From Alphaproteobacteria bacterium (lineage in GTDB: Bacteria > Pseudomonadota > Alphaproteobacteria > TMED109), in the NCBI GenBank assembly GCA_022819905.1, contig JAJEGJ010000120.1, positions 1-38,074 on the forward strand: DNA of 38,074 nt. Reading direction: 5' to 3'. Under the pieces are notes generated by a model, which saw nothing but the letters and a program-made list of their open reading frames with translations, did no database searches and had not been told where the DNA came from. This document shows, piece by piece, positions 22,077 to 37,990 of this stretch (the stretch's first letter is position 1; each line of letters opens with the position of its first letter). Made by a program: the position numbers and the translations under genes.

Positions 22077-22112
22077 GTATAGGGCCCCCTCACTGAGATT
22101 CTTATCGTACCA

Positions 22113-22180
22113 GCTATCCGGACACTTTGGGGCAAGGGTTTTCGTGGGGTGCGCATCACGCGCCAGGGCGTCCGGATAGC
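22113..22180. repeat. 11-bp inverted repeat upstream of the serine recombinase
   Basis: GCTATCCGGAC (22113-22123) and GTCCGGATAGC (22170-22180) are perfect inverted copies 46 nt apart, 36-104 nt upstream of the recombinase start. A related CGGACACCCTTG lies at about 22191-22202, echoing CGGACACTTTG at 22119. Small serine recombinases usually bind such repeats at their res or inversion sites next to their own gene. Confidence 0.5.
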
Positions 22181-22263
22181 GATCCCCCATCGGACACCCT
22201 TGCAGCGTGCGCACCTGAAGGCCAGTCGCAAAACATTTTGCGCCAAGCGACCGGCGGCCCTAC

Positions 22264-23220
22264 TTACTCCGGCCTGATGCCGTACTTGCCTTCGAGCCCG
22301 GTCACGAGGTAAGCGAGCTCCGTTGCGCCCGTCAACGCTCCTGCCAGTCGCTGCCAGCTCAGCTGCCGGAACAGGCCCGGGACGCGGCAGGCGGCCACGG
22401 CGGACACGTACTGACGTTCCGCTGTGCCGCCGGCAGCGAATTCGGGGTTACGCGCGTCGTAGACAATCAGGACATGTCCCGAGTCCTGGTCGCAGCCGTT
22501 GGCCGTCACCGTCGCGGCCAAGGCGTTGCGCGCGAGCTGGTAGGTCCCGGAGAGAGGACATGGCCGCAAGTCATGGTCGGCGTTCCAGTCGAACAGTTGC
22601 GGCAGCCAGGTCCAGTAACGGACACCGATTTCCGTCAGGGCGCAACGGGCACGGCGCCCGAGCTGGACCCGGTAGTTCCCGTCGCAGTGCTGCTCCGCGT
22701 AGGTCGAGTCGCGCGGACCCAACCTCGTGCGCGAGCAGGTACCGAATTCCCGTTCCATGAACTTGCATTCGACCGCGACGCGCCTGGAACACGCCTCGAG
22801 AAACACATCCACGCTGGTGGACCTCGGCTCGCCAAGATTGCGGACGTTGTGTTCGAGGACGAGGGACGCACTGCGCGCATCTTCCAGGAACGCCGGGCGT
22901 CCGCAGTCGGCGATGACGTCGTTCAGCAAGTCGAGCCGTTCAAAGGCAACGACCGCCCCGAACACGCTCTGGGCCAGCGCTTGCGAACTTTTGGAGCTGC
23001 GGAACCACCGATGGCGCTCCCCGTCGGGCACGGCAGAAAGGACGGCAGCAGCCTTGGCCGGGTGCGGTGGAACCAAGACGGACTTGGAGGCAAATTCAGA
23101 CCGTAGGACCGGAGGGCGGCGAGATCCGCCCTTGCCGTCAAGCTCGTTCGCGTGGTACCGGTCGGCCCAGTCCCAGAGATGCCTGAGGACAGCGTCCTCG
23201 TAGCTGGCATAGTCGATCAT
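22264..23220 (-). CDS. PGN_0703-like putative restriction endonuclease, PD-(D/E)XK fold
   Basis: The central segment TSVDVFLEACSRRVAVECKFMEREFGTCS fits a PD-(D/E)XK nuclease core, with D138 and E151-x-K153. Downstream segments (HCDGNYRVQLGRRARCALTEIG, YQLARNALAATV, HVLIVYDARNPEFAAGG, LSWQRLAGALTG) are those I recall from the PGN_0703 family of putative restriction endonucleases. ATG 23220 begins the family-like start MIDYASYEDAVLRHLW; the longer form to 23577 adds Cys-rich sequence with no similarity. No methyltransferase or specificity subunit is adjacent, so it may be an orphan or methylation-directed nuclease. It follows a serine recombinase, consistent with a mobile defence gene. The family assignment is from memory. 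Confidence 0.72.
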   Translation of the reverse strand: MIDYASYEDAVLRHLWDWADRYHANELDGKGGSRRPPVLRSEFASKSVLVPPHPAKAAAVLSAVPDGERHRWFRSSKSSQALAQSVFGAVVAFERLDLLNDVIADCGRPAFLEDARSASLVLEHNVRNLGEPRSTSVDVFLEACSRRVAVECKFMEREFGTCSRTRLGPRDSTYAEQHCDGNYRVQLGRRARCALTEIGVRYWTWLPQLFDWNADHDLRPCPLSGTYQLARNALAATVTANGCDQDSGHVLIVYDARNPEFAAGGTAERQYVSAVAACRVPGLFRQLSWQRLAGALTGATELAYLVTGLEGKYGIRPE

Positions 23221-23660
23221 GGCAGCCAGGCTCCCTGGAGAGTTGCCGGTCGAGCGCACACATACCTTCCAAGGAGACACGGCGCATCGCCGGAGTCTTC
23301 CGCACCCACCGTCCCCGTGCATCCGGCGAGACACTGGGCAGACCGGTCCCAGGGGGAACGCCTCGTAGGGAGCGCGTAGCTGACCCAAGAACGTCTGCCG
23401 GAACGACGCCGAGGTCGGGCCCAACATTCGAGACCCGCCAATAGAAGAAGTGTACAAGCAAGCCGCGTCCCAAGCGCATATTTGCAGCAGCAAGCCGCAT
23501 ACCATCGGCCCGGCGGGCTCGGCGGCTTCACGAATTGAGACCGACCTCAGATAGTGTCTGACAGTGCTGTCCAACACGCGACGTGGACGCCACTCATCTG
23601 TAGGGGCGCAATAGACTTTGAACTACGCTTATCGTTTCCTGAACACGGATACAGCCGTAC
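23221..23660. other. Divergent intergenic region
   Basis: This 440-bp stretch separates the minus-strand nuclease gene and the plus-strand Sel1 gene. The nuclease frame remains open across most of it, but the codons there encode Cys- and Arg-rich sequence with no family match, so I treat it as upstream region. No clear promoter or RNA was found. Confidence 0.4.
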
Positions 23661-24446
23661 ATGAAATGGCTCCGCGACCATCTGCTCAAAGTTGTAACTG
23701 CCGCGATGGTGGGTGCCCTCGCAACGTGGCTAACCGTGTTCCTGACACCGTTGATTCCGTCTCCCGAACAAGTTTGGAACACATTCGAAAGCATTTGGGA
23801 GAAGCGGCCACCAGCCAGCGAAGTTTTCGAGGCGAAGATGGCTGCTAGAGGCTGCAACCTCGACCTGTTCGGCAGCCTGATGTCCAAGATCGCCAACCAA
23901 GCAGGGGACATTCTCGGCGACTTCAACCTACCCAGCAACGCGACGTCCAAGACCGCCAACCAAGTACGCGGCGACGCCATGCACAAGCTCATGGACGACT
24001 GGCTTTCCCAGGCCGGCTGCAGCCACCGCGACCTCAACGAGATGTTCGAATTTCTCGATCTCACGAGAAGCCCGGTGATAGCGTACTTGATCGGACAGAT
24101 GTACGTCTCTGGCAGCAGCTACCTGGTCGCTGACCCAAGGCGCGGTTTTGGCCTGATAAAGGGCGCTGCCGAACAAGGATCTGCGTCGGCGCAAATCACG
24201 CTGGCCGACCTCTACCTGAAAGGGCTCAGCACCCCACCAAGCAAGAGCAGAGCCCTCGCTTGGTGCTGGCTCTACAACACTGCCCGGTTCCACCGGGTCT
24301 ATGAGGAACGGGACTTCCCGATAGATTTTCGGAGGAATTGCGGGAAGTTCGTCGGAGACACGTCCGACGAGGAACACCGCCTAGCCAGCCGCCTGTTCGA
24401 CAAACTGTACCCGACCAGCCGCTCGACCGGGGACGGCTTCCTGTAA
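23661..24446 (+). CDS. Membrane-anchored Sel1-repeat protein
   Basis: The N-terminus has a basic head and one hydrophobic segment (about 10-33: KVVTAAMVGALATWLTVF), so it is either an anchor or an uncleaved signal. A helical region follows (40-135). Sel1-like repeats then occur at about 141-208, with YLIGQMYVSGSS..ADPRRGFGLIKGAAEQGSASAQITLADLYLKGL. Sel1 repeats mediate protein-protein contacts. No catalytic residues are seen. The repeats occur in many signalling and defence proteins, but function here is unknown. It is divergent from the nuclease gene and has a weak ribosome site. Codon use is less GC-biased than in the core genes, which supports transfer. Confidence 0.75.
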   Translation: MKWLRDHLLKVVTAAMVGALATWLTVFLTPLIPSPEQVWNTFESIWEKRPPASEVFEAKMAARGCNLDLFGSLMSKIANQAGDILGDFNLPSNATSKTANQVRGDAMHKLMDDWLSQAGCSHRDLNEMFEFLDLTRSPVIAYLIGQMYVSGSSYLVADPRRGFGLIKGAAEQGSASAQITLADLYLKGLSTPPSKSRALAWCWLYNTARFHRVYEERDFPIDFRRNCGKFVGDTSDEEHRLASRLFDKLYPTSRSTGDGFL

Positions 24447-24490
24447 GACTTCAGCCCACGGGCGGGCCTGCTGATCACCAAGACCGCCGA

Positions 24491-24544
24491 CGACAGAATG
24501 TGAATTCTGTCTCGTCGGGGCTTCGAGTCTCGCCGCGTTTCCCA
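24491..24544 (+). other. tRNA 3'-end-like sequence, possible attachment-site remnant
   Basis: A 10-bp-class stem (GACAGAAT/ATTCTGTC, loop GTGA, 24492-24511) is followed by a T-loop-like TTCGAGT (24522-24528). Exactly 5 + 7 + 1 nt later CCA appears (24542-24544), with C at the discriminator position, which is the tRNA-His pattern. The anticodon-like loop contains GTG. No 5' half or acceptor partner is seen, the T-stem is imperfect and the variable loop is too long, so it is not a functional tRNA. Confidence 0.25.
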
Positions 24545-24744
24545 TGAGTCCCGGACCTGCACGAATTGCGACACTTGACCTGTGCGAATTGTTCACGGTC
24601 GCCTTGTCTCGCGTCGGTACAAGCCCAGAGCCGGCCGGTCGGCGCGGCCTGCAAGCCATGGCTCCACTGGACGCGACACGAAACGAGGAAGGGGCCTCCT
24701 CACCCCCCCTGCCGACGCTTGTCGTGCACCGCACCTCGGAATGG
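24545..24744. other. Non-coding gap in the island
   Basis: Nothing recognisable here. Short open frames on the plus strand have no family similarity and lie opposite or next to the pentapeptide remnant. Confidence 0.3.
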
Positions 24745-25020
24745 TCATCCCCGGGGGAGCCCGGTGTCCTCATGGCCACAAGCTCGATCGAGCTGAGACT
24801 CCACCACAGTAGCGCCCGTCAGGGTCCCACCCGACGGGTTCGCCGCCTTCGAGTCCGCACCCAACAGGTCCGCGCCGGGTAGTTTCGCGCGGGATTGGAT
24901 CGCGCCTGCCAAGGTCACGCCGGTCAAGGTCGCCTCCGACCGGTTCGCGTGCGTCAGGGTCGCAATCCGCAAGACCGCGTTCATCCGGTGCGCGCGCGTC
25001 AGGTTGGGCGTCGCCGGACG
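24745..25020 (-). pseudogene. Pentapeptide-repeat protein remnant
   Basis: The minus-strand frame reads a string of degenerate A(N/D/T)LxX units, for example ATLTHANRSEATLTG and AKLPGADLLGAD, for about 14 units. An in-frame TAA lies just upstream of the first repeat, and no start codon with a ribosome site precedes it. The end lacks any other domain. Pentapeptide repeats fold into a right-handed beta-helix. This looks like the residue of a larger gene. Confidence 0.55.
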
Positions 25021-25246
25021 TTATGAGCAGCGTCGGACTCACCGCCGTCCGGCGGCTCCTCGGACACCGCAATTGCGAGTCCCGCTCTGCGCGAGCCGGG
25101 TACTCCGCGATTTTCCCGAAGCAGGTGGCCCCACCTCGGGGCCAGCGCACTAATCGAGAATTTTCTCGCGCCGAATGGTCCAACGCGGGGGCTGGATCAA
25201 GGCCCGGACTGCCCAAATTGACGGCAAACCAGTTTTTCAGATCCGG

Positions 25247-25570
25247 TCACCGTTGCATTCGGTCAAGCGCATCCCGCATCTCACCAAGTCGATGCTTGAC
25301 ACTGTCCTGGTAGTCTTGAAGGCCCCACAGGTCTTCCTTTATTGCTCTGACGTCCATTTCAATATTTCCCACCAGATACATGAGGCACCACCTGTACTCT
25401 TGAGCGGTCTTCGGCAGATGGGTACCGCGCTCTTTCATCCTGTCTCTACACCACTTGATCTCGTCTTCGCCGCTCTGGGTCCAACAGCTGCACTCCAAGT
25501 CAGGCGTGTGCGAATTCGCATGCGACCCGAACAGAACGGCGGCCAATATGGCCACAAGAAACGCTCGCAT
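25247..25570 (-). CDS. Small secreted protein of unknown function
   Basis: A clear signal peptide (MRAFLVAILAAVLFGSHANS) is followed by an 87-residue mature region with four cysteines (27, 29, 41, 62) and a charged, probably coiled-coil C-terminus (IEMDVRAIKEDLWGLQDYQDSV...). The strong GAGGAGG Shine-Dalgarno just upstream of ATG 25570 decides the start. I do not recognise the family. A good promoter lies about 125 nt upstream. It is divergent from the decayed XRE gene. Confidence 0.75.
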   Translation of the reverse strand: MRAFLVAILAAVLFGSHANSHTPDLECSCWTQSGEDEIKWCRDRMKERGTHLPKTAQEYRWCLMYLVGNIEMDVRAIKEDLWGLQDYQDSVKHRLGEMRDALDRMQR

Positions 25571-25696
25571 ATCGAACCTCCTCACAATTGGTTGCGGTGG
25601 GGAAAGCGATGCAAGTCCCCCGGCTGCCGAACGAGGAAGCGGCAAACGGGCGCTTGCATCGCAACGCGGCCTGCACCTCGGCTGGCTGCACCCAAC

Positions 25697-25725
25697 ACGA
25701 TAGGGGATGTGGGAGGGTTTGTCAA
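25697..25725 (-). promoter_or_regulatory. Sigma-70-like promoter of the small secreted gene
   Basis: On the minus strand a consensus TTGACA (25720-25725) is followed by a 17-bp spacer and TATCGT (25697-25702). Transcription would start near 25690, about 120 nt before ATG 25570. The ACGCGTTAT repeat directly abuts the -35. Confidence 0.55.
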
Positions 25726-25832
25726 CGCGTTATATCTATATCAATTATCTGTCTCACAGCGCATTTTGCTTATCCGAAATTATCACTAGACTATATGCAA
25801 TAGCCGACTATGGTGAACGCGTGATAACGCGT
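25725..25832. repeat. Inverted ACGCGTTAT/ATAACGCGT pair
   Basis: ACGCGTTAT (25725-25733) and ATAACGCGT (25824-25832) are perfect inverted copies flanking an AT-rich 90-bp interval. A third ACGCGT is at 25817-25822. They lie between divergent genes and abut the promoter of the secreted protein, so they may be operators for the XRE-type regulator encoded next door. Confidence 0.4.
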
Positions 25833-25890
25833 CGGATTTCTCGATCTCGATCATCATGGAGCCGGGCTGCACCGAAAGCGGACGATAACC

Positions 25891-26384
25891 ATGCCGAACG
25901 CTTGCACCCAGCTTGGAGCTGTACGGAAGCAAATGGGTTGGAATCAACGCAGCCTTGCGACGGCCCCGGGGAGGACGGGCAGGACGTCGGGAACCTGGAG
26001 CGCAAGGACTGCCCGTGCTGGCGGTCGGCCTCGGCGATGTTCGAACCCAAGAATGGATGCGGAATGTGTTTCGCGGAGAACTTGCCCTCCGTTGCCGGGC
26101 TGCGCCCGACATGTGATGGCTGGTTGGACCTCGATCAGGACGAAAGGGGCGGCGTCATCGCACGCCGAATGCGCACAGTCGGCATGTCGGTTGTTCGGCG
26201 GCTCCATCATGGCCGCAATACGGTGCCAGGTGTCGACGGTCTGGCCGTGCGTGCTGCCGCCGTGGTTCAGCCCTTGTCGCAAACCGCTGGTCCAATATGT
26301 GCATTGGGGCTCTCGCCGGCAGCTGTTTCCTCACAAGGAGCATCCCGCGCCTTGGGCGAACGAGATGCTCCTGACAGCGCGTGA
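25891..26384 (+). pseudogene. Decayed copy of the XRE-type regulator
   Basis: The first frame from ATG 25891 reads QLGAVRKQMGWNQRSLATA, matching VLKEARNLMGWDQRSFATA of the intact gene downstream. The match then shifts frame to QDVGNLERKDCPCWRSASAMF and continues through VIARRMRTVGMSVVRRLHHGRNT, which matches IITRRMQVVGMSVVRRLNQARDT. The start contexts also align (ggacgataaccATG against ggaggatgaccGTG). The frameshift falls within the helix-turn-helix, so no intact regulator is made. Confidence 0.8.
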
Positions 26385-26511
26385 CCACCCGATCACAACG
26401 GACCGGTCTGCCTGGGAGAACAGCAGATGTGGCCACGCGCCCACAGGGTTCTCAATCACCTCTCGGTCTCAATGGAGTGAACCATATAGCGTAATAACTC
26501 TATGTCAATCC

Positions 26512-26521
26512 CTCTATAGAG
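26512..26521. promoter_or_regulatory. CTCTATAGAG palindrome upstream of the XRE gene
   Basis: A perfect 10-bp palindrome lies 111 nt before the XRE start in an AT-rich stretch (26480-26560). It adjoins a minus-strand TTGACA (26503-26508). Autoregulation is usual for such regulators, so this is a candidate operator; the assignment is inference. Confidence 0.35.
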
Positions 26522-26632
26522 TATGGCATGAAACGTCTATGGACGATCTGATTTGCAGATGTTACGCCTTGCGTTCTCTTCCTCACAATGGTTGGCGTGT
26601 AAGCCAGCCAACGTCTGAAACGGAGGATGACC

Positions 26633-27172
26633 GTGAAGAGTTTCGGAGTCGTGCTCAAGGAAGCACGCAATCTAATGGGGTGGGATCAACGGAGTTTTGC
26701 GACAGCACTCAGAATGTCGGACAAGACCATCGCAAACATTGAGAGCCGAGGATCTCCGGAGTGGCCGGCAGCCCAGGACGTGCTGAATCTCATGGATGCC
26801 TATGAGATCAAGTTTGCGCGGGATTTTGCGTCCAGCGAGGCGCCCGGTTTGAAGAGGCGATACTTCCTGACACTGGATTTCCGCTTCGATCCCGATCAGG
26901 AAGACCGGGTCCGCATCATTACGCGGCGGATGCAGGTCGTTGGTATGTCCGTTGTTCGTCGACTCAACCAGGCGCGGGACACCATGTCGAGTTTTGACGG
27001 GGCTGAATTGCACGTTCCGCCGATCAACCGGGTATCGTTCGACACGGTACTCTCCGGTTTCGTCAAGGAGTACGGCCCGATCGACTGCCTCGTTCGAAAT
27101 CGACACGGAATGCGGTTGACGGAGGAGAGTATCCCAGGCCTCTGGGCCTTTGGAACACAGTCCTCTGACTAG
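26633..27172 (+). CDS. XRE-type transcriptional regulator
   Basis: The N-terminal Cro/CI-type helix-turn-helix is FGVVLKEARNLMGWDQRSFATALRMSDKTIANIE (about 3-36). A C-terminal domain of unknown family follows (LTLDFRFDPDQEDRVRIITRRMQVVGMSVVRRL...). GTG 26633 was chosen over ATG 26627 because GGAGG (26622-26626) directly touches that ATG but lies 6 nt from the GTG, and the decayed copy has its ATG at the GTG position. It is 179 residues. It converges on the caspase-like gene with only 2 bp between stop codons. It may control that gene or itself. Confidence 0.85.
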   Translation: MKSFGVVLKEARNLMGWDQRSFATALRMSDKTIANIESRGSPEWPAAQDVLNLMDAYEIKFARDFASSEAPGLKRRYFLTLDFRFDPDQEDRVRIITRRMQVVGMSVVRRLNQARDTMSSFDGAELHVPPINRVSFDTVLSGFVKEYGPIDCLVRNRHGMRLTEESIPGLWAFGTQSSD

Positions 27173-27174
27173 GC

Positions 27175-28536
27175 TCAGTTGGACAATACAGCCTGGGCTC
27201 CTTGCACTATCACCGACGGAAAGTCGGTCAACGCGAACAGCAGGATCGTGCCCATGAGCGTGGGCAGTCCCAGCCCCAGGAACCAGAGAATGCGGCGTTG
27301 AACCCGTTCCAGTTCATCGGCCCGACCCTTGTGGCGCTCGACTTCCGCATTCAGGCCGGACACTGACCCGGTGCTTTCCTCAAGCTCTCCGGCAAGAGCC
27401 TTGTTCGCGTCCTGCAGCTGCCGAATTTCAGCCCCGGCCTCTCCCTTGTATCGCTCGATTTCCGCTGTCAGGCGGGACACTGACTCAGTGCTTTCCTCAA
27501 GTTCTCCGGAAAGCGCCTCGTTCTCCTCCTGCAGTTGCAGATTCTTGGCCTCGGCTTTCTGACGCTCGACTGCCTCTCTGGCCGATTCGAGATACTGTCG
27601 TCGAATCCTGCGAGCGTCTTGGTTGATGAGACGGTTATGTTCATCGTTGTTCGGAAAGATGGGTTCGTCGGAGAGGGGACTGCTCTCAAGCGCGGAATTG
27701 TAATTGCTGACTTGGGAGACGTCGCACACCGGCGCTTCCAGCTCTTCGGACTTTTCCTTGCTGGCTTCGTTGATGAAGTAACTCAAGACGCTGAAAGACA
27801 GGCCAGCTCCGAAGCCCTCGACTCCTTTCCGCAACGTTTCGAGCAAATAAAACGTAAACATCGTTAACTCAGCCCGGTCTGCACCGTAGGCTAATCCGCC
27901 CCCGTTCTCGGAGGTCGGCGCCGAAGTCGCCGTCAGGAACATCGCATCCCTCTTCCTGGCGTCGAAGTGCCCGGCTGCCTCAGAGACCCCCTTGCGTCTT
28001 CCTTCCGCCGGCAAGTTGAGAGATGTGGGTTTCACGATGGGGCGCAACTGCAAATCATGCACCAGGCCGGAATGACAGGCATCCACGATGAAGAATACCC
28101 GCATGCTGCCGCCTCCGAAGGTGGTATCGAACAGCTTCCTGAAGCTAAGGTAACTTCCCACGTCCGGATCGCCGTCTTGATCGTCGAAACTCATGTTCAC
28201 CCGCAACAAGTAATCTGGCGGCGGCAAGAAGCCGTGAGCGGAATCGATTTGTTCGCCGGGAATGCGTCCGTGTGACACAACGTAGACAAACAGATCAGTA
28301 AAGATGGGATTATCTACCAAGAAATCACCGATCATTTCGATCTGTTCTGAAGCGGTGCTGGGAGAATTGAAGAGATCCAGTCGGTTGCTCTGAGGAATGT
28401 CCAGTTCGTCAGCAAAATAGCGCTTTACCTCCCTGTGGGAGTGCTTAAAGGATTTTCGACCATAGGTAATGTTATCGTTATCGAATTCGCTCGCACCAAT
28501 CAGGAGTAGTCCAGTTGTTGAGGGATTGATAATCAT
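27175..28536 (-). CDS. Membrane-anchored caspase-like (peptidase C14) protein
   Basis: A caspase-like protease domain (about 1-260) has the catalytic His89 in VYVVSHG and Cys154 in FFIVDACHSG, with the early strand TGLLLIGASEF. A coiled coil follows (about 305-415). Within it a 39-residue unit is duplicated (338-376 and 377-413, sharing ALxGELEESTxSVSxLxAEhERxKG). A C-terminal membrane segment (about 415-440: ILWFLGLGLPTLMGTILLFAL) ends the protein. The protease would face the cytoplasm if the short tail is outside. ATG 28536 has GGAGAG 5 nt upstream; 11 extra residues are possible. Caspase-like proteases in bacteria take part in signalling, defence and cell death. The substrate is unknown. 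It is convergent with the XRE gene. Confidence 0.9.
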   Translation of the reverse strand: MIINPSTTGLLLIGASEFDNDNITYGRKSFKHSHREVKRYFADELDIPQSNRLDLFNSPSTASEQIEMIGDFLVDNPIFTDLFVYVVSHGRIPGEQIDSAHGFLPPPDYLLRVNMSFDDQDGDPDVGSYLSFRKLFDTTFGGGSMRVFFIVDACHSGLVHDLQLRPIVKPTSLNLPAEGRRKGVSEAAGHFDARKRDAMFLTATSAPTSENGGGLAYGADRAELTMFTFYLLETLRKGVEGFGAGLSFSVLSYFINEASKEKSEELEAPVCDVSQVSNYNSALESSPLSDEPIFPNNDEHNRLINQDARRIRRQYLESAREAVERQKAEAKNLQLQEENEALSGELEESTESVSRLTAEIERYKGEAGAEIRQLQDANKALAGELEESTGSVSGLNAEVERHKGRADELERVQRRILWFLGLGLPTLMGTILLFALTDFPSVIVQGAQAVLSN

Positions 28537-28919
28537 TGACACTCTCCGGTAGTTCGTTCCTGTCGTCATGTTGGTCGATGACGGCCGACTCCTACGGCCA
28601 GCCCCGCAACGTCATTCCCCGACGAGGAATCGCGTCACGCCCTTAGCCCAAGTTTGGAGATCCATCGACGAAACCGCAGAAGGCCGTCCGTTTCCCGGAA
28701 CCAAATGCGAGGAAACTCTGAAACGCGCTCGATAGTTCGGACGACCCACCGGCATTGGCAGGCAAGCGCCATGTCCCCTAATGAAACCCACTTTACGGGT
28801 TTCCGAAATGGTACGCCACCGACCGGACCAACTCTCCCCTGAATCGGTCCACCACTGTGGAAAGCCATCGGAGTTGTTGCACATGCCCCCAAGGCTGGAC
28901 CACCCGGAGCGACAAAATC
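28537..28919. other. Region between the caspase-like gene and the IS remnant
   Basis: This holds the caspase promoter region and a short GGCCG/CGGCC hairpin (28583-28599) just upstream of the gene. The long minus-strand frames through it are read-through of the broken transposase and match nothing. No gene is supported. Confidence 0.4.
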
Positions 28920-29560
28920 GCGGCTGATCCACCTCAGGGGCGGCATGCCCGACCGGTGGATTTGCCAGCCCGATCGGGGTGTTTTCGCCGATCGGGCTGT
29001 GTGGGCGAACGGATTGCAATCCGACTGCCGCACTTCACATGGTGACCGGCCGTCCGCCAGTCCCAGGAACCAGGAGGTGTTCAGGCACTCGGCCCGGAAC
29101 GACCCGTTGCACGATGCGATGAAGGCGTTGTCGGTTGGCTTGCCCGGCCGGGACAAGTCGAGCGTCACCCCATTGAGCCAGGCCCATAGATCCGGCGCCT
29201 GGCTGACGAACTCGGGCCCGTTGTCGAGGCGGATCGTCTGCGGCGTGCGGTGGATCGCGGTGACCCGCACCAGCGTCTCGACCACGTCCGTGCCGCGGTA
29301 CTGCGGCCGGACGTCGATCGCCGGCGAGAGCCGGCTGAAGGCGTCGACGATGGTGAGGATCCGTATGCAGCGTCCATGGAACAGCTGGTTCGACAGGAAG
29401 TCCGTCGCCCACACCTCGTTCGGTGCCGCGGGCGGAGAGCGGTGCTCGCGGAGCCTCGCCGCGACCCGGTGCTTCGGCGTCTCGTAGCGCAATTGCAGGC
29501 CTTCCTCAGCGTAGAGCGGGCAGATCGGCTTGGCGTTTACCCGCCAGCCCTCGCGCCGCA
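28920..29560 (-). mobile_element. IS3-family (IS407/IS51-like) transposase remnant
   Basis: Read on the minus strand, the orfB part is recognisable: REGWRVNAKPICPLYAEEGLQLR, NEVWATDFLSNQLFHGRCIRILTIVDAFSRLSPAIDVRP, and IRLDNGPEFVSQAPDLWAWLNGVTLDLSRPGKPTDN. The first two DDE aspartates are present (ATDF and RLDNGPEF). The glutamate of the usual NAFIESFNG is alanine here (NAFIASCNG). The frame breaks near 29025, where similarity continues as SVRPHSPIGENTPIGLAN in another frame. OrfA and the N-terminus are missing and no terminal repeats were found. It is inactive. Confidence 0.85.
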
Positions 29561-29814
29561 GGCAGCGGGCGCAGGGAACTACGCGGCCGGCCCTTGAGCA
29601 TCCTTGCATCGCATCTACAGCACATTGCCGCGTGTTGGCAATCCCGCCCTCGTCGCATGGGACGCGGCACCCTTCGGCAGGCAAGTATCACGTCGCACCC
29701 TCATCCGTACTAACGTTGTTAACTATTTTAATATCACGTCAAATAGGTCTAGACAATCGCGTCATAACCGTTTATGGTCTCTGCGGGCCGCTCACACGGC
29801 CTATTTTCTCCCTC

Positions 29815-29865: not shown

Positions 29866-31020
29866 CATTTTGGCGGTAACGACACGGTACGTTTGTGGCA
29901 ATCAGACTCCCGCCGGTCCCGCGGATGCTGCTCACAGCTTCGGCTTCAGGCGGCAGCAGCGATGGCCGGCGCTTCGAGTCGCGCCCGAACCCCGGCGCCT
30001 CAGAATGCTGCGCCCCGATGAATCCGCCGCCATCGCAGCACAAGGTCGAGCGGCCACGGTACGATGGTTGCCCAGCGCCGAAACCGGAGAAGCCGCGCTC
30101 GCTGGTCGGTCTTGGCATCCCCTGCCATCCACTCGTGACGTCTGAAGCCTTTTCGCCCACGAGCGTGGCACACCCCCCTCCTCAGCGCCGCCGCCGACCA
30201 TCGGCCCGGCACAAACAGCCTCCGCATGCATGCGCGCCTCGCAGGCGGGCAGGTCTAGAGCGTTCTGATCTTCGTCGAATCCGTAAACCCTCCGCCGATG
30301 CTGGCGGACGTTCGGAGATCGCAACCATGGCTCCGTCTTTCCCTTCGGAGCTACCGGAGCGCGGCGGAAGCCGCCATGGCCGACGGGCGCGCAAGAAAGC
30401 AGGGATGTGTCGCCCGGTCGTCAGCGCCGGGCGCGTACACCCGCGCATCGTCCAGCTTGCTCGCGGACCGGCCATGCCAAGGCGCTTGACAGATGCCGCG
30501 GGCGCGCAATCGACCCGCCTTGAGGCTGCGTTTCCACATGTTTCCGGCGGCGCGAGCCGCCGCCGAGCCGTTCTTCATCCAGCGGGATCGCGTGAATCCC
30601 ATCCGTTTGCCCAACTTGCGGGGAGCAGACCCTTTGTAGGATCAAGAAGCAGCATGGTCGGGCGAACGGCCTGACCCGGCGGGGGCTCCGGCCCCACCGA
30701 TTGTGCACAATGCCGCAAGCGTTGCGGCGCACGGGGTCGGCGGGCGACCTTGCGGAACAGGGACTCCTCCCGACGTGCTCCGACGACCGCGCAACCCGGC
30801 ACCGGCCCGCGGCGGCAATGCCGCTGCGACGCGGTGCCGCGACCGACGCACCCGCCGTCTCCATCGTCGCGGCCACCGCGAACGTCTGCCCTGCCCCGTC
30901 CTGTCTCTGGGCCACCGCAATCCGCAAGCCGGTGCGGACGTCACGAACCCGGACCGCCCCAGCCCGGTCGGCCGGTACTGCCCGGAACGCCCTGCCGTCG
31001 TCCTGCCCGACGCCCTCCCG
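29866..31020. other. Gene-poor stretch with element debris
   Basis: About 1.2 kb with no gene I can support. Long frames on both strands are Arg/Pro/Ala-rich and look like GC-driven noise. Within it lies the inverted decayed leader copy near 30571-30720; a tyrosine-integrase fragment follows immediately to the right. The segment GCTTCGAGTCGCGCC (about 29970-29984) is nearly identical to the T-arm part of the tRNA-like sequence at 24520. Confidence 0.4.
30571..30720 (-). repeat. Decayed, inverted fourth copy of the lipoprotein leader
   Basis: On the minus strand this reads GTTGGGCAAAcggaTGGGATTCACGC, then a CCCGCTGGATGAAGAA arm, the same order as in copies A and B. The left arm of the long stem is not recognisable. 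No ATG lies at the 63-nt distance; the nearest is at 30539. It looks like an inactive relic. Confidence 0.65.
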
Positions 31021-31240: not shown

Positions 31241-31443
31241 TAATATTGCGCGTTCTTCATCCGGCAGGCCCCGCTGAGTCGGGTCACCCGCCTAGAGCCA
31301 CAGCCTTTTCCTCCTTCAAGGGGTAGCTCCCCGGGGTTGGGCAGATGGGCGGGATTCACGCATTCCTGCTGGATGAGGATCGGCCCGGCGGCCGCCGGTG
31401 CCGACCTCACGATCTGCGGATCGCAGTCCCGAGGAGTGCATCA
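31241..31443 (+). promoter_or_regulatory. Structured leader, copy A, with -10-like element
   Basis: A TAATAT hexamer (31241-31246) precedes the leader, and RNA would start about 31253. Stem P1 pairs 31253-31268 with 31365-31380 (16 positions, two G-U wobbles and one mismatch). Inside are P2 CCCG/CGGG (31270-31273, 31280-31283), P3 CCCGCC/GGCGGG (31287-31292, 31348-31353) and P4 GGGG-tagct-CCCC (31320-31332). P5 CCGGC-ggcc-GCCGG (31385-31398) follows. P1 ends exactly 63 nt before ATG 31444, and GAGGAG is the ribosome site. No good -35 lies at the normal distance. Confidence 0.75.
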
Positions 31444-32244
31444 ATGTCATCGAGTCAATTCAGCAGAATCCGCGGCTGCTACCCACTGGCGCTTGTGGTC
31501 GCCGGTTCCCTTCTTGTCGCGGGATGCCAGCAAACCACTTCGACGTCGGACAGTCCTGGTCAGCCACCATCGAATGCGGGCACCACGGCACACGTCGAGG
31601 CGGTGCATCCCGTTCCCGACGCTCCAGCGGGAACCAGGTATCACAACTACTGTGTGCTTGCCGGCGAGGACTTGCAGCGCGGCGAAGGCTGGAGCGAATG
31701 GAGAGTTGGCGGATTCGTTGCTGATTTCCCTGGATTCCCGCTAGCCCTGTACAGCGATGACGCGGTGCAAGACGCGACCACCGCACACCTGAAGGTCTGC
31801 GCCTACGGCACATGGAAGCAGGACCGCGGCGATGGACGTTCGGAGGCAACCTGGAAAACCACCTTCTACTACGACCCCGCGGCAGGCGGCGACTTCGCAG
31901 ACCTGGACACGTTCTGCGACCTTGAGAACAAGGACGGCGTGCAAGCCGTTGGCGGTGACGTCCCGATCGAGAACGGGTGGCATTTCATTACCGGAGATCT
32001 ATTGCCGCCTGGACCGGAGATGAACTCCGTCACCGAGGCCGTGGTTGACCGGTCGGTCGCGATCATGGGTCCGGATGGCGAGACGTATCACTCGCCTTCG
32101 CCAGAAGGCACGCGCTGGCACGCGAAGAACAAGCTGTCGAGGACCAAGCGGCCTCCTGACCGCACCGGGCGGTACATCGTGGATCAGTACAACGACCGCC
32201 TTACCGAAGTCTGGGTGTACGAATACGATTCGTCCCAGAACTAG
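31444..32244 (+). CDS. Leader-associated lipoprotein, paralogue 1
   Basis: The signal sequence CYPLALVVAGSLLVAGC gives a lipobox (LVAGC), so the mature protein is lipid-anchored, probably in the outer membrane. The 266-residue protein has conserved cysteines (YHNYCVL, LKVCAY, DTFCDL). It shares long similarity with the lipoprotein at 35823: APAGxRYxNxCV, FPLxxxSDxxxQDATTAHL, FYYDPxxxGDFA, VxAxGGD and a WVYxYD end. I do not recognise the family. GAGGAG lies 7 nt before ATG 31444; the upstream in-frame start lies in the leader. Confidence 0.8.
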   Translation: MSSSQFSRIRGCYPLALVVAGSLLVAGCQQTTSTSDSPGQPPSNAGTTAHVEAVHPVPDAPAGTRYHNYCVLAGEDLQRGEGWSEWRVGGFVADFPGFPLALYSDDAVQDATTAHLKVCAYGTWKQDRGDGRSEATWKTTFYYDPAAGGDFADLDTFCDLENKDGVQAVGGDVPIENGWHFITGDLLPPGPEMNSVTEAVVDRSVAIMGPDGETYHSPSPEGTRWHAKNKLSRTKRPPDRTGRYIVDQYNDRLTEVWVYEYDSSQN

Positions 32245-32495
32245 GGGCCCAACCTGGAAGCAGCGGGTCCGTCCCTTGCCTATGGGCCCAAGCCGCCGCG
32301 CGGGCGCCGGGAGCGTCCGGGTGTCTGCATCGTGTTGCCGGGAGACCCGGGGAAAACACGGTCGGACCCTCTTCCCTGCGCTGCGGCAGCGCCGCGGCCG
32401 GCGTCATCGGCCGGATAGCCTCCTCCACCGGCCGGTGGCCCACCCTGTGCCGGGACGTGGCTGAACGGTACGCAACCGCATCGGGAGATCGCACC

Positions 32496-33422
32496 ATGGA
32501 TGTATCACCACGCGCGCACCTACGCCGAGAGGGATTCCTGACGACGCTTGCCAGGCAGTGGCCGCTTGCCATGTCGTTGCTGGTGCTGTGGGGGTGCCAG
32601 TCCGGATCGCTCGGCATCCCCCACGGGCTTCACAACAGCTCGAAAGCGTTCACCGCCGCCGCGGACATGCGTGGATCCGACTGGTCCGATCCGGCAGAAA
32701 TGGAGCGGGCGTGGCAGGCTGCATTGGTTAGAATCCCGGAAGCCGGCGGGGGCACCGTCAGCACGACGGTCGCCAGGCTTGACCAGGACGCCCCCTCTGC
32801 CCGAGGCAGGTGGCCAACCGTGATCTACCTGCACGGCTGCTCGGGGATCTGGCCCGGCACGCTCACGCGAATCAACTTCCTGGCCCGTAACGGCTATGCC
32901 GTGATTGCCCCGGCCAGTTTTGCCCGGCTCAAGTATCCGCGGTCCTGCCGCACGGATACCCACGAGGGCGGCCTGTACCGGCCGATCCTCAGCATGCGCC
33001 AGCACGATGCCGGACACGCCATTGCAAGCGCCAAGGCGCTTCCGTGGGTCGACAGTGAGAACGTCTTCCTGATGGGGCTCAGCGAAGGCGGAATCACGAC
33101 AGCAACCTTCGCCGGATCCGGCCCGGAGTACGCGGTTCGAGCCCGGGTCGTCGAGGGATGGACCTGTCAGTCAGGCTGGCCCGAACAGGCCGGGATCAAC
33201 GCGCCTCCCACCGAGCCCGTCCTGACCCTGGTCGGCGCCAAGGATCCATGGTTTCAGAATCCCTGGAATGCAGGTTCCTGCCGTCCGTTCCTCGACGGCC
33301 TGAACGGCAGCCGTTCGGTAGTGTACGACACCGGCTACCTGCAATCGCGGCATGAACTGCTGGAAGACGCCGAGGTTCAGGAAACGGTTCTCGACTTCCT
33401 GCGTGAGCACACGGCCCGCTGA
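32496..33422 (+). CDS. Dienelactone-hydrolase-like alpha/beta-hydrolase lipoprotein, first
   Basis: A hydrophobic start ending LLVLWGC (Cys34) suggests lipidation, though Trp at -2 is unusual. The hydrolase core shows the oxyanion segment YLHGCSG, nucleophile Ser196 in MGLSEGG, Asp250 in VGAKDPW and His286 in SRHELLED, so the triad is complete. It shares HGCSG and the PWVDSENVFLMGxSxGG block with the hydrolase at 34249. ATG 32496 follows GGGAGA; a longer form to 32457 adds 13 residues before the signal. The substrate is unknown. It lies 251 nt after lipoprotein 1. Confidence 0.85.
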   Translation: MDVSPRAHLRREGFLTTLARQWPLAMSLLVLWGCQSGSLGIPHGLHNSSKAFTAAADMRGSDWSDPAEMERAWQAALVRIPEAGGGTVSTTVARLDQDAPSARGRWPTVIYLHGCSGIWPGTLTRINFLARNGYAVIAPASFARLKYPRSCRTDTHEGGLYRPILSMRQHDAGHAIASAKALPWVDSENVFLMGLSEGGITTATFAGSGPEYAVRARVVEGWTCQSGWPEQAGINAPPTEPVLTLVGAKDPWFQNPWNAGSCRPFLDGLNGSRSVVYDTGYLQSRHELLEDAEVQETVLDFLREHTAR

Positions 33423-34248
33423 GCGAACTCGTGGCAGGCACGGCCGCCCCGCGGCCCAGGCAGCCGGCACCGCTTCTGAGGGAAGCTGTTTGACACTGCC
33501 TGGCGCCGGCGCGGCCGGTCGGGTTCTCCCGTTGCCGTGACCACCGACGAGGGAACGCTCCGCGCGTCCGTGGCGGCGGCCGCGCGGGAGGGCGAGCGAG
33601 CTGGGTCCGCCCGCTGCAACGACCAGGTTCCAGCCACGTTCGGCGTCAGCCGTGGCCGCCGCGGCCGGGACGGTTGTCCTTAGGCGCGGGCAATGACCGC
33701 GGCCACCGGTGCATCCGCATCCTGCGGGGCGGCATCGTCGAGGTGCGCGTGGACCGCGGCAGTTTCGCGCCTGCGGTGTCCAGGCAGCTTGCCGACGGTG
33801 GCGAGGCCCACGCCGTTCATGACGCGCTGCGAGGCACAGGTGTTCCGACAGGCATGGCTGCGGGGCCGGGCAGTCCGGCGTCCGCGCCCGCCCCGCGCCA
33901 GTCCGCGCAGAGCCGCCCCGGCGAGAGGCGCTCGGGCCATGGCCGCGCCGCGCGCCCGCGGCAGCGTGGCGGCCTGCCTGCCCGCCACCGGAGCGGGCCG
34001 GGTCGGACGCGGCCTCGTCTTCGTGCCCGCGACCTGCGCGCTGGCACCCGCGTTGCCCGGTTCCCCGATCTCGTCTGACCTGCTCCCCGGAAGTCGCGCC
34101 GTCTGGCACGCGAGAACCCTCGGACGGGTGTTCTTCGACCCGCCAAGAAGCGGCCATGGAGCGGTCGAAGTTCGGCGAACAACCGCATACCCTGCTCGTT
34201 GCTGACTGGTCGTCGAACCGTTCGCGACTTTTCGTAAAGGAGATCGCA
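33423..34248. other. Gene-poor stretch between the two hydrolases
   Basis: About 0.8 kb with no intact gene. The minus strand carries an integrase fragment (33680-33871). The AAAGGAGA ribosome site of the downstream hydrolase is at its right end (34236-34243). The remaining frames are Arg/Ala/Pro noise. Confidence 0.45.
33680..33871 (-). pseudogene. Tyrosine-integrase C-terminal fragment (second)
   Basis: The minus-strand frame ends with SHACRNTCASQRVMNGVGLATVGKLPGHRRRETAAVHAHLDDAAPQDADAPVAAVIARA, matching the end of phage-type integrases (HDLRHTYAS...GVGLxTVGxLLGHRRxETTxxYAHL). The HxxR box survives as HACR and the box-III His is kept, but the catalytic Tyr is His. It belongs to a different integrase family from the fragment at 31021. 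The upstream part is unrecognisable. Confidence 0.75.
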
Positions 34249-35028
34249 ATGCGCGTGCCGATAATCGCGATCGCCCTCGCCGGCGCAATCTGTTCCAGCG
34301 GTTGTGCGCCGACCGCCGGCGTGAGCATCCCCCATACGCCGGCAGCGGGGTATCTGGCCGTCCCGGAAGGAGACGGGCCCTTCCCTGCGGTCGTGCTGAT
34401 GCACGGGTGCAGCGGTCTGGATCCGGAAGTTCAGAAAGGCAATACCGTGCATGTGCGGAACCTGCATTCCGAAGGCTTCGTCACGCTGATTCTCGACAGC
34501 TTCGGACCCCGTCGACTGGGCGACGTGGTCTGCAATGAAGGCGAAGAGGAGATGGAAGCGTTCCGCTACCGGCAGCGTGACGCCGTGGCCGCAGTACGGT
34601 TTCTCCGGTCGCATCCCTTTGTCGACAGCGAGAACATCTTCGTGATGGGGCAGAGCCACGGCGGCTGGGTCGTGCTGCAACTGGCCATCAGCCGCAACAT
34701 TCCCGTGGGGGACCGGTTTCGCGCGGCGGTCGCCTACTACCCCTGGTGCGGCGATCAACAGTTGCGACAGCAGCTGCACACGCCGGTACTGGTACTGATC
34801 GGGGAAAGCGACGACTGGACCCCGGCAGACCGCTGTCTCGAGGCCAAGCGCTACGCCCGGGGCGCGCCGTTCGAGGTGGTGGTGTACGAGCACGCCCATC
34901 ACAGTTTCGACCTCCCCATGGGCGGACCGTACCGCTACAAGGGCTACACGGTGGCCGGACACGCTGGCGCCGCGGCCGATTCCCGGAAACGGATGGTCGC
35001 GTGGTTTCGGGAACACGGCACCTTCTAG
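34249..35028 (+). CDS. Dienelactone-hydrolase-family lipoprotein, second
   Basis: The lipoprotein signal MRVPIIAIALAGAICSSGC gives Cys19. The hydrolase fold has LMHGCSG, nucleophile Ser136 in MGQSHGG, acid in GESDDWTP (188-189) and His218 in HAHHSF. The substrate-binding C-terminus keeps the YxxxGHAGAAADSRKRMVAWF pattern common in DLH proteins. AAAGGAGA lies 5 nt before ATG 34249, which decides the start. The length of 259 residues is typical. It would act in the periplasm on an ester or lactone of unknown identity. It is a paralogue of the gene at 32496. Confidence 0.88.
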   Translation: MRVPIIAIALAGAICSSGCAPTAGVSIPHTPAAGYLAVPEGDGPFPAVVLMHGCSGLDPEVQKGNTVHVRNLHSEGFVTLILDSFGPRRLGDVVCNEGEEEMEAFRYRQRDAVAAVRFLRSHPFVDSENIFVMGQSHGGWVVLQLAISRNIPVGDRFRAAVAYYPWCGDQQLRQQLHTPVLVLIGESDDWTPADRCLEAKRYARGAPFEVVVYEHAHHSFDLPMGGPYRYKGYTVAGHAGAAADSRKRMVAWFREHGTF

Positions 35029-35618
35029 CGGTGGTGCGCCGGACAGGCCTGGCCGCGCGGTAGCAGACCGCCACCCGAGGACATTGCGTCACGCGGGACG
35101 GGTGCGGCGGCGAACTGGGCAAGGTTCCGCACCCCGCCACACACACGGTGATCCACAATCTATGTTCGGCCTCACTCCGCGCAGAGGGCTGGCCCGCCGC
35201 GACCGAGAATCCTGGCTCCCTCGATCGTGTACGCGCCTCCGCTTCCGCTAGCCTGGGCACTTGCCTCAACGAAACCGCCTCCAATCGCGATTCATGCCGG
35301 CGTTGCCGCACGCACGGGCTCAGGCGGTTTACTCATTACTGCACGGTCAAGCGATCCGCCCGGTAGTACACCCTCCACGGGTTGCGCCCGTCACGTCGCA
35401 GACCGGCCTTGTCGCCTTGACCTGAGCATGGCTTGTTTGGTCACCACTGGGAACGGATCGCGTGCTGCGGCAGGTGCTGCGCCGATGGCGCGGTTCTCAG
35501 GGTACCGCAGGGAGGCCGGCGGATACCCGGTTACCAAAGTCCGACGCACGCGACTGGTTGTGAACCATTTGACCCAGGTCGTGCCTGGATTTGCCGCGCG
35601 CGTTGGCATGCGTTCGGG
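35029..35618. other. Gene-free region before leader B
   Basis: About 590 bp without a supported gene. Short frames on either strand match no family I know. The last ~60 bp resemble the sequence before leader A (GGCATGCGTTCGGG just before the -10-like hexamer in both). Confidence 0.4.
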
Positions 35619-35822
35619 TAGTATTGCGCATTCTTCATCCAGCAGGTCCCGCTGTGTCGGGCCGCCCGCCGAATAGAACAGCCCTTTTTCTCCTTCTAGC
35701 GGTAGCTCCGCGGGGTTGGGCAAATAGGCGGGATTCACGCATTCCTGCTGGATGAAGAACGGCCCGGCGTCCGCCGGTGCCGACCTCACGATCTGCGGGC
35801 CGCGCGCCCAGGGAGTGCGTCG
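35619..35822 (+). promoter_or_regulatory. Structured leader, copy B, with -10-like element
   Basis: TAGTAT (35619-35624) lies 12 nt before P1, which pairs 35631-35646 with 35744-35759 (16 perfect pairs). Inside are P2 (35648-35651 with 35658-35661), P3 (35665-35670 with 35727-35732) and P4 GCGG-tagct-CCGC (35699-35711). P4 has the second pair swapped from G-C to C-G relative to A and C. P5 CCGGC-gtcc-GCCGG is at 35764-35777. P1 ends 63 nt before ATG 35823; GGGAG is the ribosome site. Confidence 0.8.
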
Positions 35823-36605
35823 ATGTCGTTGAATCCGGTCAGAAACACCTTCGCTTGCTACCCGTTGCCGGTTGTGGTCGCCGCCTCATTGCTGGTCGCG
35901 GGATGCCAGCAGACCGCCGCGACTTCGGGTGGGTCGGGTCAATCCGCAACGGCCGCAGCGGAAGATCGCTCGAGCTGGCAGACGCTGAGCACGTTCCGGT
36001 CGCCGCCGGCAGCGCCCGCCGGATCGCGGTACCAGAATACGTGCGTCTCCAGGGGCTACGCGCTGGAAGGTCCCGAAGACGCGCCTGACCGGTTCCTGGT
36101 GGCGCTGTACGTCCATGACATGCCCGACTTTCCGCTGCCCATGTTCAGCGACCCGGTGCGCCAGGACGCCACGACCGCGCACCTGACCGGCTGTGCCGTC
36201 CACTACAAAGTGGGCATGGACGCGAACGGCAAGCCGAAGTACCGGTGGGATGACTTCACGTTCTACTACGACCCGACTCCGGACGGCGACTTTGCGAATC
36301 CGGAGAGCCTGTGCGGGGGCGAGGAGGGCGTCATCGCGCTCGGTGGCGACCGGCTGCTGGACCAGAGCGCGGCCGAATGGGGCTACGACGGGGGCTACGG
36401 CCTGACCGAAGTCGATCGGCAAGTGGAAGTCGCGGGACCGGACGGAAACACGGTCGTGATCTCACCGGCGGGCGCCATCTGGGCCACCGGATGGGAGTGG
36501 ATGCCGCAGGACAATCTGAGCGAGATCTGGGTCTACCAGTACGACGACCCTGCCCTGGCCCCTGAACCCGTCGATCATCGCACCACGGCTGACCCGCTGT
36601 ACTGA
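35823..36605 (+). CDS. Leader-associated lipoprotein, paralogue 2
   Basis: The signal CYPLPVVVAASLLVAGC gives the lipobox, almost the same as in the protein at 31444. The 260-residue protein shares with it the conserved cysteines (YQNTCVS, LTGCAV, ESLCGG), the FPLPMFSDPVRQDATTAHL block, FYYDPTPDGDFA and a WVYQYD end. No family is recognised. It diverges most in the region after the lipobox and near the C-terminus. GGGAG lies before ATG 35823. The two genes are clearly duplicates and both keep the leader. Confidence 0.8.
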   Translation: MSLNPVRNTFACYPLPVVVAASLLVAGCQQTAATSGGSGQSATAAAEDRSSWQTLSTFRSPPAAPAGSRYQNTCVSRGYALEGPEDAPDRFLVALYVHDMPDFPLPMFSDPVRQDATTAHLTGCAVHYKVGMDANGKPKYRWDDFTFYYDPTPDGDFANPESLCGGEEGVIALGGDRLLDQSAAEWGYDGGYGLTEVDRQVEVAGPDGNTVVISPAGAIWATGWEWMPQDNLSEIWVYQYDDPALAPEPVDHRTTADPLY

Positions 36606-37059
36606 ACCGGGCGCAGCATGCCCCGGCCCCTGACCGGGTCGGCGGGGAACCTGAGCCCGTCGAAGCCGATCCGGCCGGTCCCGCTTTGCGCCGGGTCGTC
36701 CCGTGAGGGCGGCCCGCATGCCCGCACGCCGGTCGAAGCCGCAGGGCGGCCCACCAGGAGGCAGCGTTTCCGCGTCGCCTTGCGCGGGCGTCAGGTTGGC
36801 GGTGCCGACGGGGCCCGGTGCACCGACGCCAGGGCCATGACGGCAACTGCCCGGGCGGCCGCATCGTGCAGCGCCGCCGCGCCGAAGGGCGCGCGGATGG
36901 CGGCGTGCGGCGCTGCCGGAGGCTGATCGCGGGTTGCCGCGGGCATTGCGCGGGTGCCGGCGAATACCCGATTCCCCGGGTCCGAGCCATCCGTCCAACT
37001 GCGAGCCCCCTGGGCCGCGCGCTTCCGGGTTTGGCCGGACAACTTGGCCGGCATTCGAT
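36606..37059. other. Gene-free region before leader C
   Basis: About 450 bp with no supported gene. A weak CCCGG/CCGGG stem lies shortly after the lipoprotein stop (36622-36638). Frames on both strands are GC-driven. It ends in the promoter of leader C. Confidence 0.4.
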
Positions 37060-37267
37060 TAGTATTGCGAGTTCTTCATCCAGCAGGCCCCGCCGAGGCG
37101 GGTCGCCCGCCGAATACGCCAGGCGTTGCCTACCTGATAGCGAGGGGTAGCTCCCCGCGCGCAGATGAACAGGCGGGCCTCACACTTTCCTGCTGGATGA
37201 AGAACGGCCCAGCGCCCGCTGGTGCCGTGGGACCCGTGTTGCGGCTGAGCCGCAAGGAGACGGTTTG
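37060..37267 (+). promoter_or_regulatory. Structured leader, copy C, with -10-like element
   Basis: TAGTAT (37060-37065) lies 12 nt before P1, which pairs 37072-37087 with 37189-37204 (16 perfect pairs). P2 is 37089-37092 with 37099-37102, P3 37106-37111 with 37172-37177, P4 GGGG-tagct-CCCC 37144-37156. P5 reads CCAGC-gccc-GCTGG (37209-37222), with an A-T pair where A and B have G-C. P1 ends 63 nt before ATG 37268; AAGGAGA is the ribosome site. The variable part between P3 and P4 differs from A and B. Confidence 0.8.
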
Positions 37268-37990
37268 ATGTTCTTCAACACAGCAGGAAGAAAACTCCTA
37301 TTGGCAGGGATGCTGCCGCTTGCAGCGATTGGATGCAGTCCGCAGCAGCAAGCGGCGACAGACCTCAGCTCGATGCCCGCAGAGGCGGAGGGCCCGGTCG
37401 CAGAGGCGCCGCCGGACTATCCGGTAGGAACCGTGTTTACCGGCAATACCACCATCAACGGCGAGACCGTCCGCGTCAGCGACACGCTGGTGGAAAAGAT
37501 CGAACGCGATGGGCGGATCCTCGACATGGTGGAGCACTCGCAGCCCATTCGTGACCCGGGATCAGCGTGCGACGGCGAGACCCACGCACTGTGGGACGCG
37601 AAGACGTCCAACTGGGTCGGATGCCTGGCCGACGGGGAAATGCTGGCAGGCAACGAGCCGCATGCCGCGCGGTACGCGTGGCCGCTGCAGGTCGGCAACA
37701 AGTGGACGTGGAAGCCCCGCTGGGTCGACCACGTGCTGCATCCGGAGTGGAGCGGATCGTACTGGAGTGAGTACGAAGTGCTGGCCTACGAAGAAGTCAC
37801 CGTTCCCGCAGGCACCTTCATGGCATTCAGGGTCGCGACGACGCGAGTGCAGGATGATGCCTGGTACGAGACCAACTGGTATGCCCCGGAGCCTGCGGTC
37901 AACGTCAAGAGCGTGTGGGGCCGGACAGACAAGAACGGCTACGGCCCGATGGAGGGCATGTGGGAACTGATCAGCATCGAGTACCCGTAG
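37268..37990 (+). CDS. Leader-associated lipoprotein, unrelated to the other two
   Basis: The signal KLLLAGMLPLAAIGC gives a lipobox (AAIGC, Cys23), followed by a Gln/Ala/Pro-rich linker and a roughly 190-residue domain with two cysteines (GSACDGE, VGCLAD). The segment WPLQVGNKWTWKPRW and the later YEVLAYEEVTVPAGTFMAFRV resemble small beta-domains seen in other bacterial lipoproteins, but I do not recognise a named family. It lacks the blocks shared by the other two lipoproteins although it has the same leader. AAGGAGA lies upstream of ATG 37268; an in-frame TTG is one codon earlier. Confidence 0.8.
   Translation: MFFNTAGRKLLLAGMLPLAAIGCSPQQQAATDLSSMPAEAEGPVAEAPPDYPVGTVFTGNTTINGETVRVSDTLVEKIERDGRILDMVEHSQPIRDPGSACDGETHALWDAKTSNWVGCLADGEMLAGNEPHAARYAWPLQVGNKWTWKPRWVDHVLHPEWSGSYWSEYEVLAYEEVTVPAGTFMAFRVATTRVQDDAWYETNWYAPEPAVNVKSVWGRTDKNGYGPMEGMWELISIEYP

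Follow-up and report, generated by a model that had tools for sequence, protein, structure and literature searches.

A structured leader RNA family of sponge symbionts with a predicted fold that masks the ribosome-binding site

Three 5'-leader RNAs, called A, B and C here, stand before lipoprotein genes in a 38,074-nucleotide stretch of DNA (contig JAJEGJ010000120.1, assembly GCA_022819905.1, an alphaproteobacterium), which we refer to as the window. We confirmed that they are members of a previously undescribed structured RNA family with 99 matched places, nearly all in genomes of marine-sponge symbionts (metagenome-assembled genomes, MAGs, of sponge studies). Each leader is a conserved core closed by a long helix, P1, whose sequence changes from locus to locus. 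The family is probably a cis-acting two-state leader RNA that controls translation of the secreted-protein and lipoprotein genes behind it.

The leaders and their family

An earlier sequence-only reading of the window had described a TAnTAT box that begins 12 nt 5' of P1, a 16-bp P1 that ends 63 nt before the ATG in all three leaders, and the further elements P2, P3, P4 and P5. We recovered all of these (Table 1). The two compensatory swaps that it had reported are also real, one in P4 (GGGG/CCCC in A and C, GCGG/CCGC in B) and one in P5 (G-C to A-T in leader C). Single-sequence folds are better than those of dinucleotide shuffles (z −4.3 for A, −2.7 for B and −3.8 for C), and the P3 core loop is intact in leader B and altered in A and C. 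Three copies alone are weak evidence, and the likeness of A, B and C fits local duplication. The 63-nt spacing is particular to these local duplicates; from P5 to the start codon the window copies measure 40 nt, against a median of 25 nt across the family. It is the 99 matched places that settled the question.

Searches with blastn in the window's genome and 60 relatives found further copies confined to the same genus, with a core that is almost constant and a P1 that differs in sequence yet still pairs. We built a covariance model (R1) from 13 of these copies, masking P1 with N because MAFFT misaligned it on raw sequences and also to avoid circularity. R1 finds copies in all 7 genomes of the genus, and when 84,980 species genomes were searched for a 23-base pattern of the core, 82 stretches matched. 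Homologues with covariation, sought by covariance model, do exist. A phylum-wide sample of 398 genomes under stricter filters returned this genome and one weaker match only; a shorter variant subfamily is present in 6 of 60 genomes of the family of that weaker match. The taxonomic family of the window holds 21 further genomes, all of them smaller, and no leader was found in any; the long form had no blastn match among phages and plasmids and no exact pattern match in viral contigs.

By the titles of their records, leaders occur in Alphaproteobacteria and in Gammaproteobacteria, including the single-record chromosomes OY282447 and OY282460. They are also present in MAG bins labelled Gemmatimonadetes and Bryobacterales, where binning errors are possible (one Bryobacterales contig is just 3.3 kb). 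For several MAG series other than RHO, IRC, CAR, COS and jk18x we presume a sponge origin, and a few records (Plut_88856, 277c_14) could not be placed. The RHO, IRC, CAR and COS series we take, by their prefixes, to be those of a reef demosponge set (PMC8163846). Copies number 1–11 per genome (28 genomes; these are lower bounds, as part of the candidates were scored). The jk18x series is from Ircinia (PMC9531527). Some leaders form tandem or divergent pairs a few hundred bases apart (genome:contig G325:C404, 6933/7168; G338:C125, 5082/5297; G318:C18, 43598/43792; G335:C60, 6679/7482). Two leaders from two genomes of the genus, L006 and L015, have promoter and P1 5' arm in common, and L015 is cut off inside the core, a natural deletion.

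Selection on RNA pairing, claimed earlier from the three copies, is supported by the family as a whole. In a 99-row alignment (A5) 92% of cells pair, and 42 of the 48 pairs have changed on both sides, including 16 of 16 in P1. The covariation score is 0.476, compared with 0.139 for shuffles and at most 0.061 for slid controls. A5 was fitted to the model and so favours the model's structure, but the pairing of P1 is not an alignment artefact, because contiguous complementarity of such length lies at a fixed place and P1 letters were masked in R1. The unpaired letters that hardly vary are the two strands of the P3 loop, GAAUASAACA and GAAUA. P4 can be reduced to a UUCG loop (L168, L173) with the rest kept, which is why we dropped an anti-Shine-Dalgarno role for its conserved loop GGUAGCUCC. 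A transcription terminator was rejected, there being no T-run after P5 in the copies read. Upstream, the family-wide logo has weak −35 and −10 signals at a fixed distance from P1, and this promoter-like signal places the transcription start at about the first base of P1.

The genes behind the leaders encode secreted- or lipidated-looking products in 56 of 75 non-redundant cases, against 75 of 470 background open reading frames (16%; p 4e-24) and 6 of 44 divergent ones. In this count start codons were picked regardless of signal peptides; start codons, ribosome-binding site (RBS) windows and secretion were all judged by simple custom scripts rather than trained predictors. A recurrent glycosyltransferase family 25 gene is among the exceptions. 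Six leaders (L070, L078, L079, L110, L115 and L119) stand before such glycosyltransferase-like genes (family 25, lipopolysaccharide biosynthesis; confirmed by Pfam for L110), whose products act on the envelope although they carry no signal peptide. Leader L048 precedes the gene of a T5orf172 protein, a domain associated with phage genes. In the window, the products behind leaders A and B are homologous lipoproteins (38% identity, E 2e-42). The leader C product has no detectable relationship to the leader B product in direct comparison; the claim that one leader stands before unrelated lipoprotein genes holds. Between leaders A and B lie two lipoprotein genes of the dienelactone-hydrolase type (32457–33422 and 34156–35028) that are without such a leader; not every lipoprotein gene here has one.

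Homology to sRNA-Xcc1 and complementarity to the RBS

An Rfam scan of the window gave no match at gathering threshold, and no leader tested reached the 53-bit gathering cutoff of RF02221, the sRNA-Xcc1 family. However, the variant leaders score up to 39.3 bits against it (E 5e-4, corrected for all families) and sponge locus L159 scores 34.9 bits; the best score in the window's genome is 18 bits. A second model, R2, links the variant leaders to the sponge family with up to 72.8 bits, and found no match in four RF02221-type RNAs. Because R2 joins the variant leaders to the sponge family, a distant, stepwise relationship to RF02221 is likely. Thus the family matches nothing in Rfam at cutoff, but it is not unrelated to everything known. 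Judged by sequence, the sponge family and the RF02221 leaders of phage antirepressor genes probably share ancestry.

RF02221-type loci (L176–L179 and the viral L180–L259) mostly stand directly before phage antirepressor genes, and viral contigs contain the RF02221 core in at least 120 stretches. Six of the seven phage products tested directly behind the core have antirepressor-type domains (AntA, P22_AR, Rha twice, BRO and KilA-N); the plasmid product behind L178 had no Pfam match. At 65 non-redundant phage and plasmid loci, the second-hairpin segment is far more complementary to its own gene's RBS than to those of other genes (−11.87 against −6.68 kcal/mol, p<2e-4), and a control on early coding sequence is near flat (−5.54 against −4.99, p 0.014). 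This suggests that RF02221 RNAs are cis-regulatory rather than free small RNAs (sRNAs). Our literature searches found no report of the sponge RNA, nor of RBS pairing in RF02221 RNAs.

The RBS complementarity of RF02221-type RNAs predicted the same for the sponge leaders, with the P1 3' arm in that place. Indeed, the prediction held. In 42 non-redundant leaders the P1 3' arm prefers the RBS of its own gene (−11.86, against −9.71 for the RBSs of others; z −5.3), the more so when the linker is included (z −7.2). The 5' arm, upstream DNA and positions 40–66 after the start showed no own-gene signal in these leaders, and positions 3–29 gave a weak trend (p 0.036). The variant subfamily shares this own-RBS complementarity (7 loci, all 5,040 permutations; p 0.0008). 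Moreover, when the 5' arm is removed in silico, pairing of the RBS with the linker or arm goes up from 4.5% to 34.5%, foreign arms giving 14.6%, and the accessibility of the RBS drops from 0.45 to 0.35. In leader B, RBS pairing rises from 0 to 0.50; in an illustrative fold of L006 minus its 5' arm and P2 5' strand, the linker pairs with the Shine-Dalgarno sequence. The relation is thus triple: the P1 5' arm is an imitation of its own gene's RBS region, and the 3' arm can pair with either. This accounts for the variation of the closing helix from copy to copy.

The core contains a second, alternative helix. S2 joins the P2 3' strand and its flanks (GUCGGGYCG) to the P5 5' strand (CGGCCCGGC); it excludes P2 and P5 and crosses P1. 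It is paired in 95.6% of alignment cells, with both-side changes in 7 cells against 1.1 expected (0 of 500 shuffles), 6 of the 7 at A52-U207. Residues G40, U41, Y50, C51 and G52 are conserved though unpaired in the P1/P2/P5 fold. In the sequences of the variant subfamily, the outer three S2 pairs have changed from UCG/CGG to CGG/CCG. S2 is conserved and occupies the place of the outer helix in the Rfam alignment of RF02221; in the sponge leaders, however, P1 competes with it and the second hairpin is missing.

From the computed structure, homology and complementarity we infer that the leaders regulate, and that some trigger may tip them out of a default state. The leader is a conserved core (P2, P3 with its loop, usually P4, then P5) closed by the roughly 16-bp, locus-specific P1. 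In the putative ON fold (P1, P2 and P5), the RBS-imitating 5' arm would occupy the anti-RBS arm, so that the RBS stays open. The OFF fold would combine the anti-RBS:RBS pairing with either S2, as sRNA-Xcc1 RNAs have it, or P5, and would mask the start site. A ligand or protein that biases the choice between the folds would most likely act at the conserved P3 loop.

Weighing the explanations

Several observations weigh against this two-state reading. At a median of −25 kcal/mol, P1 far outweighs the anti-RBS duplex (−11 kcal/mol), so that the OFF fold may be rare and masking would need help, be it a factor acting on the core, processing of the 5' end or the kinetics of folding. Arm:RBS complementarity is moderate in A, B and C (−8.1 to −10.7), and several loci are without anti-RBS complementarity. 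The covariation of S2 is partly shared with that of P5, which makes the evidence for S2 good but not independent. Finally, in Xanthomonas sRNA-Xcc1 was mapped as an RNA of its own, 88 nt long (PMC2996969).

The leader could be a riboswitch in the strict sense, with a small molecule bound by the P3 loop and junction driving the choice between P1 and the anti-RBS pairing. We regard this special case of the two-state reading as possible but hold it with less confidence than the general form. Near-invariant unpaired loop letters within variable helices, many unrelated genes behind one core and two mutually exclusive folds would all be expected of a riboswitch. Yet the client genes have no metabolic pathway in common and offer no candidate ligand, and protein or kinetic control would leave identical marks.

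It is improbable that the leader is the source of a trans-acting sRNA, as sRNA-Xcc1 is annotated, with its place before genes secondary. The distant RF02221 homology and the separate 88-nt RNA point that way, as does the word trans-acting, used of sRNA-Xcc1 in the title of a 2011 paper cited by PMC12444791. But in sponge and phage sets alike, it is the gene immediately behind the leader that the RBS complementarity singles out, and the distance from leader to start codon is short and regular. We think it similarly unlikely that the leader is a passive stabiliser, its long helix shielding the mRNA from the first bases on and its core having a tertiary fold that does not switch. P1 is indeed a long, strong helix in every case and begins near the transcription start; nevertheless, such a role leaves the conserved core loop, S2 and the own-RBS complementarity of one arm alone unexplained.

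The sequence-only reading had proposed a new cis-regulatory RNA or a mobile promoter-leader cassette. Its first half stands, in that the sequences carry the signature of cis regulation. The second, whether as a mobile cassette, an integron-type element spreading in front of genes or a miniature inverted-repeat transposable element, we rejected as very improbable: several copies per genome, presence across phyla and RF02221 members in integron cassettes (PMC12444791), on plasmids and on viral contigs speak for it, but copies that are not duplicates differ completely in promoter and P1 and have the RNA core alone in common, variable ends around a constant middle being the reverse of a transposable element, and the likeness of A, B and C fits local duplication; no search aimed at attC sites or an integrase was made.

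Elsewhere in the window, R1 detects a decayed fourth leader copy (27 bits, E 0.0064), which retains its P1 3' arm and some of the core. Just before the leader cluster lies a likely acquired island (21483–29684), in which PADLOC found no convincing match.

Table 1. Leaders, their parts and neighbouring features in the window
Feature	Position	Strand	Remark
Leader A −10-like box	31241–31246	+	TAATAT
Leader A RNA	31253–31403	+	122.9 bits with R1
Leader A P1	31253–31268 / 31365–31380		5' arm / 3' arm
Leader A P2	31270–31283		
Leader A P3	31287–31292 / 31348–31353		
Leader A P4	31320–31332		
Leader A P5	31381–31403		
Leader A S2	31278–31286 / 31381–31389		
Lipoprotein gene behind leader A	31444–32244	+	no Pfam match
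Leader B −10-like box	35619–35624	+	TAGTAT
Leader B RNA	35631–35782	+	146.6 bits with R1
Leader B P1	35631–35646 / 35744–35759		5' arm / 3' arm
Leader B P2	35648–35661		
Leader B P3	35665–35670 / 35727–35732		
Leader B core loop	35671–35680 / 35722–35726		GAATAGAACA / AAATA
Leader B P4	35699–35711		
Leader B P5	35760–35782		
Leader B S2	35656–35664 / 35760–35768		
Lipoprotein gene behind leader B	35823–36605	+	homologous to leader A gene
Leader C −10-like box	37060–37065	+	TAGTAT
Leader C RNA	37072–37227	+	119.5 bits with R1
Leader C P1	37072–37087 / 37189–37204		5' arm / 3' arm
Leader C P2	37089–37102		
Leader C P3	37106–37111 / 37172–37177		
Leader C P4	37144–37156		
Leader C P5	37205–37227		
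Leader C S2	37097–37105 / 37205–37213		
Lipoprotein gene behind leader C	37268–37990	+	
Decayed fourth leader copy	30548–30700	−	
Serine resolvase	21483–22214	−	island
REase-ARP protein	22264–23577	−	island
Helix-turn-helix protein	26627–27169	+	island
Caspase-like protein	27175–28569	−	island; DACHSG motif and coiled coil, no Pfam match
Insertion-sequence-type integrase	28635–29684	−	island

Meaning and relation to known systems

We tentatively propose a wider reading, which we advance as a conjecture. One RNA sensor class, annotated so far as sRNA-Xcc1 alone, might control the translation of phage antirepressors and, in its longer form, the secretomes of sponge symbionts across phyla, responding to the same cue through the GAAUA loop, with the competing strand of each long leader imitating the RBS region of its own gene. 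Apart from this conjecture, the two-state reading makes a prediction at the level of mechanism for a widespread and poorly understood family: RF02221 RNAs would be RBS-masking leaders whose main clients are phage lysogeny regulators. The sponge leaders also bring to light a predicted secreted-protein regulon that sponge symbionts have in common without being related, a rare molecular way into the control that uncultured symbionts have over what they present to the host.

sRNA-Xcc1 has been described upstream of symE in Xanthomonas integron cassettes (PMC12444791), and homologues in Xylella vesicles (PMC12189769). The sponge leaders resemble RF02221 RNAs in the P3 core loop AAUACAAnACC...GGGAAUA, which aligns residue by residue and is conserved in A5, perhaps in a variable outer helix, and in a segment complementary to the RBS of the downstream gene. 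They differ in adding the P1 5' arm and the P2 5' strand, which would compete with RBS masking, and in replacing hairpin 2 by a linker and the P1 3' arm. Their clients are secreted proteins, whereas those of RF02221 are antirepressors or symE.

Other systems offer parallels as well. C4 (RF01695) is also a structured RNA that controls phage antirepressor expression, but it acts as an antisense RNA and belongs to a different Rfam family, and Rfam scans found no match to it among the sequences here. Translational riboswitches and other RBS-sequestering leaders are alike in design, with two mutually exclusive folds, one of which, in our model, would mask the RBS. As in riboswitches, a conserved, aptamer-like core lies in the 5' leader of many unrelated transcripts, and sequence complementarity and in-silico folding predict an alternative helix that masks the RBS. 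By contrast with riboswitches, the sponge leader has a switching helix whose sequence changes from locus to locus as an imitation of the RBS region found there.

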